Notes under the pieces: model-generated | Databases searched by the model: none | Told to the model about the DNA's origin: nothing | Seen by the model: the letters and a program-made list of their open reading frames with translations, nothing else | Program-made: the position numbers and the translations under genes | Assembly: GCF_020731415.2 (NCBI RefSeq) | Contig: NZ_CP088273.1 | Coordinates: forward strand, 253,001-317,000 | Length of the DNA stretch: 64,000 nucleotides | Reading direction: 5' to 3' | Source of the DNA: Phyllobacterium sp. T1293 | GTDB taxonomy: Bacteria > Pseudomonadota > Alphaproteobacteria > Rhizobiales > Rhizobiaceae | Shown: piece by piece, positions 41,594-63,805 of the stretch | Layout: every line of letters begins with the position of its first letter | Position numbering within the stretch: the stretch's first letter is position 1

Positions 41594-41639
41594 CTTGCAA
41601 GCGACACACCGGACACCCCGCCCGTGGACGTTATCTATC

Positions 41640-41838
41640 GAGGCAGGTCTCCTGGCTCACGGGTCAGTGCTCTTGTCAGGCCTTCCCGATCCATGTGCGG
41701 ATCAGTGACACGAAATTGACGACAGCTCGCCGCTTACAGTTGCGGGGGCAGCTCCGGATTAAATCTCGGGAAGAGATCGCACCGTATTCCCTCTTAGCTC
41801 TGCGCCCCGGAAGGCGCAGAGAACCACGATGAAGGCAT
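41640..41838 (-). promoter_or_regulatory. Cobalamin (AdoCbl-type) riboswitch upstream of metE
   Basis: Read on the minus strand, the region has the standard order of conserved boxes: a GC hairpin (41799-41820), GGGAATACGGTGCGA (41777-41791), the B12 box CCCCCGCAACTGTAAGCGG (about 41730-41750), and the closing GCCAGGAGACCTGCCT (about 41640-41655). Such RNAs bind cobalamin and shut off the gene downstream. Here that is metE, the B12-independent enzyme, which fits well. Confidence 0.95.
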
Positions 41839-41903
41839 GGTAGGCGTGTGTCCGCAGACTGTCAATAACACATAAAGGTATCTTTATATGGTTACGTCAT
41901 CAT

Positions 41904-58782: not shown

Positions 58783-60189
58783 CTATCTGCTCCAGAAGCG
58801 GCGTGTAAACAGAATAACGATGGTGATAATCTCAAGGCGTCCAGCCAGCATCAGATAGCTGAGAACCATAAGAGAAGGATCGCCAAGCGTCGAGAAATTG
58901 CCAACGGGACCGATTGTATCGCCAAAACCGGGGCCTACATTGGAAAGCGCCGTGAGGGCGCCGGTGATTGATGTGCCCAGATCATTGCCGAGCATGGCAA
59001 GGGCCGTGGCGCCGATAACCAGTGATGCCATATAGAGAAAAATGAACAGCAGCGCCGATTGGGCGACTTCCTGACTGATTTCCGAGCGGCCATAACGCAT
59101 TTTGACAATAGCATTGGGCATGATCAGCCGCGTCAGGCTGGCGGAGGCGAGCTGCCAGAGAATGATCAGGCGATTGAGCTTGATGCCGCCCGAGGTTGAC
59201 CCGGCGCAGCCGCCGATAAAGGTGACGATGAAGAAGATGCCGAGCGCTTCCGATCCCCAGCGCGTGTAATCCTCGGTGGCAAAACCCGTGGTGGAAATGA
59301 CGGATACAAGGTTGAAGGACGCGGCAATTAGCGCGTCACCAAAGCCGATACCGGTTTCCAGCGTCAGGCCCACGGCCAGAAAGAAGCTCAGGCCGATCAC
59401 GATGATGAAGAACAGTGTCACCTGCGGATCGGCCAGTGAGGTCAGGCGCTGCGGCATCACGGCTTTGATGTAGAGCACAAAGGGCAGGGCGCCGAGCACC
59501 ATGAACACGGTGGCAATAACGAGGATTGCCCGGTTGTGGGCATAAAAACCGAGCGATGAGTCATGGGTAGAAAAGCCGGCAGTCGCAACCGTCGTCATGC
59601 CGTGATTAACCGCATCGAACATGCCCATGCCGGCGGCGAAATAGAGAATGGTACACAGCACCGTCATGCTGACATAGGCGATGATAATACCCGTGGCGAT
59701 CTGATGGATACGCGGCAGGATTTTTTCCGATTTGTCCGAGGATTCCATGTGCAGCAGCTGAATGCCGCCGACGCGCAGCGATGGCAGGAGCAAGAGTCCC
59801 AAGCCGACGAAACCGAAACCACCGAACCAGCACAGCAGCGAGCGCCACAGCAGGATGCCGCGCGGCATTGCATCTAATCCTGTCAGCACCGTTGCGCCGG
59901 TCGAGGTAATGCCCGACATGGATTCGAAAAATGCCTTGGCAAAACTGATCGGCAATGTGGAAAAATACAGCGGCAACGATCCGAGCAAAGCTGCAGTCAG
60001 CCAGACAGCAACGATCAAAAGAAAGCCAAGACGCGGGGTGAAGCGTATTTCGGGGTTGTTTGTGGCAAGTGCAATCAGACCGCAGAGTACACCGGTGAAA
60101 ATGGCCGATTGAACAAAAGCAATCCAGTCCCGGTTGCCGATATGCAGATCAACAGCTGCCGGAATCAGCATGGCAGCGGCCATGACCAA
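58783..60189 (-). CDS. trkH: TrkH-family potassium uptake protein
   Basis: A TrkH/KtrB-type potassium translocator with four pore-like repeats; visible selectivity-filter segments include SGITSTGATVLTGL, TVATAGFSTHDS, VSVISTTGFATEDY and ALSNVGPGFGD. TTG 60189 is the first conventional start in this frame (468 residues). However, the coding-like frame continues upstream for about 13 residues (FRTIINICARFG) after an in-frame TGA at 60238, and a GAGG 7 nt before an ATT at 60226-60228 suggests a rare AUU start (about 481 residues). A TrkA partner must lie elsewhere. Confidence 0.9.
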   Translation of the reverse strand: MVMAAAMLIPAAVDLHIGNRDWIAFVQSAIFTGVLCGLIALATNNPEIRFTPRLGFLLIVAVWLTAALLGSLPLYFSTLPISFAKAFFESMSGITSTGATVLTGLDAMPRGILLWRSLLCWFGGFGFVGLGLLLLPSLRVGGIQLLHMESSDKSEKILPRIHQIATGIIIAYVSMTVLCTILYFAAGMGMFDAVNHGMTTVATAGFSTHDSSLGFYAHNRAILVIATVFMVLGALPFVLYIKAVMPQRLTSLADPQVTLFFIIVIGLSFFLAVGLTLETGIGFGDALIAASFNLVSVISTTGFATEDYTRWGSEALGIFFIVTFIGGCAGSTSGGIKLNRLIILWQLASASLTRLIMPNAIVKMRYGRSEISQEVAQSALLFIFLYMASLVIGATALAMLGNDLGTSITGALTALSNVGPGFGDTIGPVGNFSTLGDPSLMVLSYLMLAGRLEIITIVILFTRRFWSR

Positions 60190-60438
60190 GCCAAATCGCG
60201 CGCAAATATTGATGATGGTGCGAAAAATGAGCGGACCTCAAGCTGGCGACATGGACATGAGAATGTTTCATAACCGGTTCTGACAGGTGTCACAATGCGC
60301 CAGAAATAGCAAAACACCACGTACAAGCTGTGGCTAACCCGGCTATATCAAGCTCAGACCTTGCAACGGAGGGGGCTGACCCACTACCTTATGGCATTGG
60401 AAATGATGAAAACTCTGCTCCGAACCCTTTCTGGCTGA

Positions 60439-61437
<999 letters not shown>

Positions 61438-61497
61438 GGGCTGAAATAATGGAGCCGGTTTCCATGTGCGAAACCGGAACGGGGGAGAGACTGCGCC

Positions 61498-62394
61498 ATG
61501 TCGCTTGACTGGGACAAGTTGCGAATATTTCATGCTGCGGCGGAAGCGGGGTCATTCACCCACGCTGCCGAGACGCTGCATCTGTCGCAATCAGCCATTT
61601 CCCGTCAGGTGAGCGCTCTGGAGCAGGATGTCGGTGTTCCCCTGTTTCACCGGCATGCCCGCGGCCTTATCCTGACCGAGCAGGGCGAAGTGCTTTACCG
61701 CACGGCACATGAAGTGCTGATGAAGCTGGAAAACGTCCGCTCGCGCCTCACCGAAAGCAAGGACCGGCCATCGGGCAAGCTGCGCGTGACAACGACAGTT
61801 GGTCTCGGCTCCGGCTGGCTGATCGAGCGCGTGCAGGAATTCATCGAACTCTACCCGGAAGTGCAATTGCAGTTGCTGCTCGACAATGAAGAGCTTGACC
61901 TGACCATGCGCCATGCGGATTGTGCGATCCGCCTGCGCCAGCCGCAACAGCCTGACCTGATCCAGCGTCGGCTGTTCACGGTGCATATGCACGTCTATGC
62001 CTCGCCGGGCTATATTGCCAAATATGGCAAGATCGAAAACATCGACGAGATCGACTCCCATCGCATTGTCAGCTTTGGCGAACCCGCACCGTCATATCTG
62101 ACCAATCTCAACTGGCTTGAGGTGATCGGCCGCTCCGACGGCAATCTGCGGCCCGCTGTGCTGCAGATCAACAACCTGCTATCGATCAAGCGCGCCATCC
62201 AGAAAGGCGTTGGTCTTGGGGTGCTGCCTGATTATATGGTCGAGAAGGATTCGACCCTCGTGCGCCTGTTGCCGGAGATGGAAATGCCATCCTTCGACAC
62301 GTTCTTCTGCTACCCCGAGGGAATCAAGAACGCTGCCAAATTGCACGTATTCAGAGATTTCCTTTTCTCGAAGGCGCGCACCTGGTCGTACTGA
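61498..62394 (+). CDS. lsrB: LysR-family regulator, LsrB/VtlR type
   Basis: A 298-residue LysR regulator: helix-turn-helix at about 5-64 (FHAAAEAGSFTHAAETLHLS) and a ligand domain to the end. The sequence is very close to the LsrB (Sinorhizobium)/VtlR (Brucella, Agrobacterium) group as I recall it, and the gene follows trxB as in those genomes. The Brucella protein VtlR activates the sRNA AbcR2, and the Sinorhizobium protein responds to oxidation. Here an AbcR-like sRNA follows within 200 nt, with LysR-box-like sequences in front of it. Confidence 0.93.
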   Translation: MSLDWDKLRIFHAAAEAGSFTHAAETLHLSQSAISRQVSALEQDVGVPLFHRHARGLILTEQGEVLYRTAHEVLMKLENVRSRLTESKDRPSGKLRVTTTVGLGSGWLIERVQEFIELYPEVQLQLLLDNEELDLTMRHADCAIRLRQPQQPDLIQRRLFTVHMHVYASPGYIAKYGKIENIDEIDSHRIVSFGEPAPSYLTNLNWLEVIGRSDGNLRPAVLQINNLLSIKRAIQKGVGLGVLPDYMVEKDSTLVRLLPEMEMPSFDTFFCYPEGIKNAAKLHVFRDFLFSKARTWSY

Positions 62395-62512
62395 TCGGGT
62401 TTTTCAGCGTTTTGGTGGAAAAATATTCTTTCTAAAACACGATCAATTGGAGCATAATGTTGCCCGTTTGATCAGGTAAAGCCGACCATCATTTCAAAAA
62501 TGCCGATAAATT

Positions 62513-62551
62513 GTCGATATGCATTTCGTGCATGGGTGCAATGCACAATTA
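62513..62551 (+). promoter_or_regulatory. Candidate LysR-protein binding region upstream of the sRNA
   Basis: The stretch holds overlapping dyads: TGCATTTCGTGCA and TGCAATGCACAAT within TATGCATTTCGTGCATGG onward. It covers about -80 to -40 from the predicted sRNA start, the normal position for LysR activator contact. T-N11-A spacings occur inside it. Confidence 0.55.
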
Positions 62552-62556
62552 GGGGA

Positions 62557-62585
62557 TTGAAAGAAACGGTTAATGGGCCCATATC
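62557..62585 (+). promoter_or_regulatory. sRNA promoter (-35/-10)
   Basis: TTGAAA (62557-62562), a 17-bp spacer, and CATATC (62580-62585). The -10 is weak, consistent with activator dependence. The predicted transcript start is near 62592. Confidence 0.6.
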
Positions 62586-62591
62586 CACATC

Positions 62592-62710
62592 ACTTGCCGA
62601 TGCGTCTCCTCCTCCCATTGCGCATCCGCAAGTGTTCCCCTCTGGAGGTTTTGCCAGAAATGGCATCCTTCAAAACTTAAGGCCGGGCAATTGTCCGGCC
62701 TCTTTTCTTT
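62592..62710 (+). ncRNA. abcR: AbcR-type Hfq-dependent regulatory sRNA
   Basis: A transcript of about 115 nt is predicted. It contains two anti-Shine-Dalgarno patches, TCTCCTCCTCCC (62605-62616) and TTCCCCTCTGGAGG (62634-62647), which I recall as the hallmark single-stranded target-pairing regions of the AbcR sRNAs of Brucella, Agrobacterium and Sinorhizobium. It ends in the terminator stem AGGCCGG/CCGGCCT (62680-62701) and a T-rich tail. No start codon with a coding frame fits. AbcR RNAs repress many ABC-transporter binding-protein mRNAs by blocking ribosome binding. Only one copy is present here. Confidence 0.85.
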
Positions 62711-62730
62711 CCGGGGTCTGTTTTCAAAAA

Positions 62731-63711
62731 TCAGCGATAGAGCGTTTCGGCTTCCAGTCCCGTGTAGAGCGATGCGACCTGATCGCCATAGCCATTGAAC
62801 AGCAGCGTCGGCACGCTTTCGCCCGTGTGCAGCACGCGCTCATGCGCCTGACTCCAGCGTGGATGCGCAACCGCCGGATTGACGTTGGCCCAGAAGCCAT
62901 ATTCGTTCGATGCCAGCTCTTCCCAGAAACTCACCGGTTGCTTGTCCGTGAAAGTGATCTTGCGGATCGATTTGATCGACTTGAAGCCATATTTCCACGG
63001 CAAAGCAAGCCGGATCGGGGCGCCGAACTGATTGAGCAGCGGTTTGCCATAGGCACCTGTGACCATGAAAGCGAGGTCATTGGCGGCTTCCGCCATGGTA
63101 ACGCCCTCCACATAGGGCCATGTGTAGAGAAAGCCGTTCTGGCCGCTGGCCATGGATGGATCATTGAAGGTCTCGAACCTGAGATATTTGGCTGAAGCGA
63201 GTGGTTTTGCCAGTTCAACCAGTTTGGACAGGGAAAAGCCGGTCCATGGAATGGTCATCGACCATGCTTCGACACAACGATGCCGGTAAAGGCGCTCTTC
63301 CAGCGGGATTTTTGCTTCAAGGTCAGCGAAGTCAATCGTAAAAGGCTTTTCCACCATGCCGTCGATTTCAATCGCCCACGGATTGGTAATCAGGCTTTGC
63401 GCTTCCGCATAAACGCCCTTGTCGGAACCGAATTCATAAAAATTATTGTATTTCGCGTTGATCTCTTCCGGTGTCAGACTGCGATCAAGCTTGTAGGCGT
63501 CGTTGCGTTTGGCAGGATAAAGCGCCGGGTTGCCAGCGGGTTTGCGGTCGCCTTCCGCGCGCGCCATCTTCGGCGAAGCTGCGAGAGCCACGGTTGCCAG
63601 CGCACCAAGCCCCCACGCCTGAAGAATTGCCCGCCGGTTCATGAATGCAGCTTCCAGGGTTGCCAGAGTTTCGGCTATTGCCCAGACGGGCTTGCGGTGG
63701 ATTGCGACCAT
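62731..63711 (-). CDS. msrP: Protein-methionine-sulfoxide reductase catalytic subunit MsrP
   Basis: A 326-residue periplasmic molybdopterin enzyme repairing oxidised methionines. A Tat-type signal (NRRAILQAWGLGALA) is at about 25-39; Cys146 in HRCVEAWSM is the molybdenum-coordinating residue. Later motifs are LPWKYGFKSIKSI and EYGFWANVNP. ATG 63711 is used, with GAAAGAG upstream. No msrQ haem-membrane partner gene is adjacent. It is convergent with the sRNA gene. Confidence 0.93.
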   Translation of the reverse strand: MVAIHRKPVWAIAETLATLEAAFMNRRAILQAWGLGALATVALAASPKMARAEGDRKPAGNPALYPAKRNDAYKLDRSLTPEEINAKYNNFYEFGSDKGVYAEAQSLITNPWAIEIDGMVEKPFTIDFADLEAKIPLEERLYRHRCVEAWSMTIPWTGFSLSKLVELAKPLASAKYLRFETFNDPSMASGQNGFLYTWPYVEGVTMAEAANDLAFMVTGAYGKPLLNQFGAPIRLALPWKYGFKSIKSIRKITFTDKQPVSFWEELASNEYGFWANVNPAVAHPRWSQAHERVLHTGESVPTLLFNGYGDQVASLYTGLEAETLYR

Positions 63712-63805
63712 GACTGCTCTTTCATTCCTGCGGGGATTGCCCGTCAAAATATGCCATTTCCCGATAATGATGCTTCACACAAAGCTGTGAAGCCAACATG
63801 CCAAA

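Follow-up and report, generated by a model that had tools for sequence, protein, structure and literature searches.

The trxB-lsrB/vtlR-abcR locus

Within the window (the whole stretch of 64,000 nucleotides of Phyllobacterium sp. T1293 DNA that we analysed) the gene of a LysR-type regulator lies directly downstream of trxB. It is followed on the same strand by a small RNA gene of the AbcR family and then by msrP on the other strand. The features are:

60463-61437, plus strand: trxB, thioredoxin-disulfide reductase (TIGR01292, 397.7 bits, cut-off 343.45)
61498-62394, plus strand: lsrB/vtlR, LysR-type regulator of 298 aa with Cys142 and Cys271 (open reading frame; match to PDB 9hh1_A)
62592-62706, plus strand: AbcR-family (alpha-r15) sRNA of 115 nt (Rfam RF02345 match and predicted fold)
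62592-62633, plus strand: stem-loop 1 (predicted fold)
62609-62616, plus strand: aSD1, CUCCUCCC, in the loop of stem-loop 1 (unpaired in the predicted fold)
62635-62642, plus strand: aSD2, UUCCCCUC, between stem-loops 1 and 2 (unpaired in the predicted fold)
62643-62672, plus strand: stem-loop 2 (predicted fold)
62680-62706, plus strand: intrinsic terminator, a 9-bp stem (62680-62701) followed by a T run (fold and terminator scan)
62731-63747, minus strand: msrP (NF003767, 405.7 bits, cut-off 207)

The order trxB, lsrB/vtlR, abcR has been described for Agrobacterium tumefaciens (PMC7486931). Because the trxB stop lies only 60 nt before the vtlR start at 61498, the two genes probably form one operon. 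Over its whole length (residues 1-298) the LysR protein aligns with PDB chain 9hh1_A at 7.5e-144; the entry is labelled only as a LysR family regulator. We infer that this chain is A. tumefaciens LsrB, since its cysteines at 144, 236, 244 and 273 (counted along the alignment) match the four cysteines reported for that protein (PMC11975290). Cys142 and Cys271 of our protein align with 144 and 273, and hence the redox pair is conserved. Two named Phyllobacterium records (L003 and L004) contain the identical protein (100%), and the best 120 listed matches, out of a capped 8000 candidates scored, include close relatives, among them one labelled Brucella melitensis by NCBI (82% identity). NCBIfam supplied no curated name: the 25 models listed, of 56 matched, are all below their cut-offs.

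The Rfam covariance model ar15 (RF02345) matches 62592-62706 on the plus strand at full length (model positions 1-112 of 112), with 61.2 bits against a gathering score of 40 and an E value of 5.2e-10. It is one of two AbcR copies in this genome. An earlier sequence-only reading had proposed such a search after delimiting a 115-nt non-coding segment about 200 nt after the LysR gene. Start and length of that segment are exactly those of the ar15 match, and the gap to the LysR gene is 197 nt. The predicted folding energy is −49.6 kcal/mol (z −7.4; none of 200 shuffles reached so low a value). The fold has three stem-loops, including the Rho-independent terminator, a kind of site of which our scan expects 0.4 by chance in the stretch. 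Elsewhere in the window, at 41625-41843 on the minus strand, Rfam also places a cobalamin riboswitch (RF00174, 123.5 bits, cut-off 31.5).

A single strand of 9 nt separates stem-loops 1 and 2 in the predicted fold. AbcR1 and AbcR2 of Sinorhizobium meliloti are described as carrying two 8-nt anti-Shine-Dalgarno motifs, one in loop 1 and one between the first two stem-loops (PMC8844928), and CUCCUCCC and UUCCCCUC are identical to them. The M1 and M2 motifs reported for Brucella AbcR (PMC5461406) are likewise identical here: aSD1 overlaps M1 (CUCCCA, 62612-62617) and aSD2 overlaps M2 (GUUCCC, 62634-62639). The two CU-rich patches and the terminator of the sequence-only reading are therefore in place. 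Its central claim, an LsrB/VtlR regulator beside an AbcR-like sRNA, is supported by the Rfam match, the synteny and the 9hh1_A alignment.

Promoter and regulator box

Upstream of the sRNA we find the following elements:

62509-62514 with 62545-62550: dyad AATTGT/ACAATT (dyad search)
62520-62525 with 62540-62545: dyad TGCATT/AATGCA (dyad search)
62528-62533 with 62541-62546: dyad GTGCAT/ATGCAC (dyad search)
62520-62533, plus strand: upstream half of the predicted regulator site, TGCA-N6-GCAT, about −72 to −59 (sequence; overlaps the box)
62530-62544, plus strand: LsrB/VtlR box GCAT-N8-TGC, −62 to −48, containing GCAT-N3-TG-N3-T at 62530-62542 (motif and conservation)
62557-62562, plus strand: −35-like hexamer TTGAAA (sequence; TTG is the commonest triplet there in linked promoters)
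62580-62585, plus strand: −10-like hexamer CATATC (sequence; similar CATAT-type hexamers stand there in the listed linked promoters)

The published LsrB/VtlR box, GCAT-N3-TG-N3-T, lies at −61 to −49 of the S. meliloti abcR1 promoter (PMC8844928). Here it reads GCATGGGTGCAAT and lies at −62 to −50. The form TGCA-N6-GCAT is that of the LsrB site in the S. meliloti nfeR1 promoter (PMC10746234). TTGAAA and CATATC are 17 nt apart; a generic promoter scan did not report them, its sole match in 62390-62740 being on the other strand. The promoter and the overlapping dyads had been pointed out before from the letters alone, together with LysR-box-like elements, which turn out to include the published box at its published place.

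The motif and the dyads by themselves do not exceed chance. In the single sequence, 414 of 2000 dinucleotide shuffles yield a 6-bp dyad as close as this within 41 nt. The box motif occurs 16 times in the window against 14.8 expected, and 45 of 100 shuffles reach 16. Genome-wide there are 1201 matches (591 + 610), compared with 118 + 118 for the reversed short pattern. We accept the box because its position is conserved in relatives, although the motif alone is at chance level; judged by sequence comparison, this conservation at a fixed position is the signal that goes beyond chance. Autoregulation of trxB-lsrB has been published (PMC11975290). No match to the box occurs here in 60150-60470 (before trxB) or in 61400-61500 (before vtlR), a point against autoregulation through this box and against the reading that we propose below.

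Conservation in the genus, the family and the order

All 20 genomes of the genus that were searched carry ar15 (63 copies, 62 of them over the cut-off, 2 to 6 per genome) and exactly one LsrB orthologue at 1e-100. In each, one AbcR follows lsrB in the same orientation after 159-1477 nt. Every one of these linked copies has [TC]GCAT-N8-TGC at about −62, and 19 of the 20 have the strict box.

A similar picture emerges from the best 80 of 268 relatives found in a contig scan. An ar15 match at or above the gathering score lies downstream of vtlR on the same strand in 74 of these 80 loci (20, 20, 17 and 17). Five of the remaining six (L045, L059, L061, L076, L078) show a sub-threshold AbcR sequence together with the box; in the sixth, L072, neither was present within the 3 kb examined. 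The strict box lies at −60 to −63 in 63 of the 74 loci. It is missing from eleven (L012, L040, L041, L053, L056, L063, L065, L066, L067, L071, L082), all of which except L053 deviate at the T of TG.

At the level of the family, ar15 is found at an E value of 0.001 or better in 76 of 101 genomes (65 over the cut-off; 129 matches) and an LsrB homologue at 1e-90 in 99. Of the 76 genomes, 71 have an AbcR copy on the lsrB strand no more than 3 kb downstream of that gene; the five without a linked copy are G146, G191, G179, G136 and G150. The nearest linked copies are 83-2498 nt from lsrB, and 17 genomes have at least two linked copies. Upstream of the nearest copies, GCAT-N8-TGC starts between −68 and −59 exactly in 63 of 71 cases and with at most one mismatch in 69. 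In a control stretch (starts between −140 and −131) the corresponding counts are 0 and 1. The two failures are G130 (four mismatches, 29.6 bits) and G211 (two mismatches, 30.7 bits), of which G211 carries the published box form despite failing GCAT-N8-TGC. Two of the one-mismatch boxes, at the low-bit matches G124 (29.6 bits, −66) and G172 (39.1 bits, −67), may be chance matches.

Of the 71 linked promoters, 48 have the strict form as published. Across the 69 boxes GCAT and TGC are nearly invariant. Because 67 boxes retain the G of TG whereas 14 have A in place of its T, the operator, as far as sequence comparison goes, is better written GCAT-N3-[TA]G-N3-TGC. The box (at most one mismatch) also occurs at 8 of 21 later tandem copies and at 14 of the 36 unlinked copies counted, out of 37 (G153:C95 was dropped as it has no upstream sequence).

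In the order, matches were obtained in 16 of 121 genomes, four of them belonging to the family. Since the other 105 gave no match under stricter filters, absence or divergence of AbcR is common across the order. Outside the family there are 12 loci (L086-L097), and only L086 among them exceeds the cut-off. In eight of the 12 the 1.5-kb flank contains a gene for an LsrB homologue (54-67% identity), which by its coordinates lies upstream of the RNA in the same orientation; each of these eight has the box at −61 to −65. These LsrB-linked AbcR-like RNAs of other families (L086, L087, L089, L090, L092, L094, L095, L096) score 29-40 bits, seven of them below the cut-off. L091 has the box and no LsrB gene in its flank; L088, L093 and L097 have no box at the −61 to −65 place. 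The unit at our locus is an ordinary, widely conserved one.

Second and accessory AbcR copies

The second AbcR of this genome (L002 1501-1597, C1:2784647-2784743, plus strand) is on the same contig, 2.47 Mb from the linked copy. It is unlinked to lsrB and has no LsrB box, and we therefore predict that the regulator drives only one of the two copies.

The other 43 copies in the genus fall into 20 second-class copies, one orthologue per genome, and 23 accessory copies. The second-class RNA begins with GCGTAACG. None of the 20 has the box, and 19 have CTTGAA upstream. For S. meliloti the RpoH1 consensus has been given as CTTGAA-N16-CCTATAT (PMC8844928). The −10 region of the second-class copies agrees poorly with that consensus, and for this reason RpoH control is only a suggestion. 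Six of the 23 accessory copies (L180, L184, L185, L196, L198, L206) carry the box at the same distance, three in strict form, with [TC]GCAT starting at −61 to −63. A literature search for the term "AbcR3" listed two papers, both on SARS-CoV-2.

DUF1127 genes and a possible wider regulon

In Brucella, VtlR is reported to activate abcR2 and three DUF1127 genes (PMC12595884). Of the 11 DUF1127 matches in our genome, two (L167 and L169) are preceded by the published box no more than 140 nt upstream of the match. For the other nine, neither exact box form occurs within 500 nt. With a one-mismatch case included, the candidates are:

L167, own C1:1027559-1027666, minus strand: DUF1127 small-protein gene with the full LsrB box
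L169, own C1:3354026-3354136, plus strand: DUF1127 small-protein gene with the published box form, TGA for TGC
L168, own C1:3571908-3572015, minus strand: DUF1127 small-protein gene with a one-mismatch box, GCAA for GCAT

The L167 box is kept in all 21 relative loci that we fetched, covering all 20 genus genomes, and the L169 box in all six long matches among 13 places listed. L168 is the weaker case, its box having come from a best-match search that required a downstream CTAT; its relatives have GCAA (in one locus GCAG) for GCAT in all nine fetched loci, of 20 places listed. From box start to the −10 there are 48 nt at L167, 48 nt at L169 and 50 nt at abcR, with hexamers chosen by hand. Separate promoters of the kinds known as VtlR targets share the predicted operator and its spacing.

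Searching the whole genome for GCAT-N3-TG-N3-T with −35/−10-like spacing gave six places, the abcR promoter among them, and none with a reversed-pattern control, a weak control since GCAT and TG words are over-represented in the genome. The looser pattern YGCAT-N8-TGCR with TTG gave 38 places against three. We did not retain box plus promoter as a means of finding the regulon across the genome. Of five YGCAT-N8-TGCR places inspected, one looked promising. This place, L252 (own C1:1562186-1562215, minus strand), has an abcR-like box, TGCATTGCTGCGTTGCACAA, and some 90 nt further on a frame resembling a transporter, which we read as an MFS transporter.

Discussion

Our results point to an LsrB/VtlR-AbcR unit in Phyllobacterium. 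The AbcR family, the fold, the motifs and the box with its position and conservation are read directly from the DNA. The regulator, made from a trxB-lsrB operon, would occupy the dyad (about −72 to −48), a place immediately upstream of RNA polymerase, and from there activate the sigma-70-type promoter at 62557-62585. The 115-nt AbcR would then pair through its two single-stranded anti-Shine-Dalgarno motifs with ribosome-binding sites and so silence ABC-transporter and metabolic mRNAs. The second, unlinked copy would be transcribed independently of LsrB. We put the probability of this reading at roughly 0.93. For Phyllobacterium, we infer binding, activation, use of Hfq, the set of targets and LsrB-independent transcription of the second copy by analogy with relatives. 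There, gel shifts with the abcR1 promoter have been reported for A. tumefaciens (PMC7486931) and S. meliloti (PMC8844928), activation is further backed by Northern blots and promoter fusions (PMC7486931, PMC8844928), and pairing through the anti-Shine-Dalgarno motifs by reporter assays in S. meliloti (PMC8844928).

One could argue that the AbcR is real and is not controlled by the neighbouring LysR protein, adjacency and box having been inherited without function in the genus. The 1201 genomic matches to the published box fit this argument, as does the statement in PMC7486931 that AbcR does not depend on LsrB in S. meliloti. According to PMC8844928, LsrB is indispensable for AbcR1 in that species, and because the two reports disagree the link can depend on strain or conditions. 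A box without function is hard to reconcile with its fixed distance in 20 of 20 genus and 69 of 71 family promoters (at most one mismatch) next to a control stretch that is not kept, with its absence from all 20 second-class copies, and with related boxes at DUF1127 genes, which are known VtlR targets in Brucella. Hence, we consider a lack of control very unlikely. Somewhat less likely again is that the conserved dyad is bound by a different LysR-type regulator. The generic T-N11-A form is indeed common to LysR proteins (PMC8844928), but the Brucella VtlR motif CAATGCAGCCATGCA (PMC12595884) by visual comparison shares 13 of 15 positions with the other strand of 62529-62543, and it is LsrB/VtlR itself that shifts the abcR promoter in two relatives (PMC7486931, PMC8844928).

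The segment could also belong to a long mRNA leader, a trailer or a coding sequence, given that a mechanical open reading frame of 231 aa (62500-63195) spans it. This frame runs antisense through msrP (405.7 bits, cut-off 207), and a full-length match to a family-specific covariance model, together with a promoter-like sequence and a terminator, makes anything other than an sRNA exceedingly improbable.

The LsrB/VtlR-AbcR unit closely resembles published systems. A. tumefaciens C58 has the gene order trxB-vtlR-abcR1-abcR2, with AbcR downstream and the box GCAT-N3-TG-N3-T (PMC7486931). Direct VtlR binding and activation are reported there for abcR1, the first copy, whereas here they are predicted from sequence; C58 has two tandem copies, whereas here one is linked and the other is 2.47 Mb away. 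The vtlR-abcR2 system of Brucella has one linked, VtlR-activated copy and an unlinked sibling that is described as not being under VtlR (PMC5461406, PMC12595884), a likeness that we draw by sequence. The activation of DUF1127 genes by Brucella VtlR (PMC12595884) has its counterpart here in the boxes upstream of such genes. The sibling of B. abortus belongs to the other chromosome, that of our genome to the same contig as the linked copy, and the host here is from a plant-associated genus. S. meliloti shares both anti-Shine-Dalgarno motifs and almost the same box position (−61 to −49, here −62 to −50), and its sibling copy is also under a different promoter class (PMC8844928). Its arrangement is tandem, unlike ours, and the RpoH1 promoter of its sibling is only resembled here (CTTGAA, with a poor −10).

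That alpha-r15 occurs in several copies and has conserved promoter motifs was noted before (PMC3712013). One search of the open literature for AbcR with Phyllobacterium listed a single paper, which judged by its title deals with a different subject. What may be new is in the detail: the sharper operator, the box at some unlinked AbcR copies, the sub-threshold members in other families and a missing cysteine in Mesorhizobium. At the position of Cys271, 46 of the best 80 named loci have an Ala (motif DTYFAYPDA); 43 of the 46 bear the label Mesorhizobium, and L034 and L035 are among the 46. All but one of the 46 keep the AbcR sequence, the exception being L072. In A. tumefaciens, replacing C273 is reported to cause a peroxide sensitivity like that of an lsrB deletion (PMC11975290).

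A wider reading, to which we give even odds, is that LsrB/VtlR would be a dedicated activator throughout the order, serving a small dispersed set of genes that comprises its linked AbcR, a part of the unlinked accessory copies and at most three DUF1127 genes. It would act through the near-symmetric GCAT-N8-TGC, set at a constant distance from the start, with the T of TG dispensable, and the sub-threshold AbcR sequences in other families of the order would be the same unit. If this holds, activation of AbcR in most sampled Mesorhizobium would not depend on the redox switch, because the cysteine is lost there yet the AbcR box is kept.

Our study confirms, by sequence, a published regulatory unit for Phyllobacterium. 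The operator GCAT-N8-TGC, derived from 71 promoters and sharper than the published one, has a fixed place and allows prediction of which AbcR copies respond to LsrB and which do not. The need to investigate the role of LsrB redox sensing in AbcR control has been stated (PMC8844928). Mesorhizobium strains with Ala in place of Cys271 would offer a natural test of whether AbcR control needs LsrB redox sensing.
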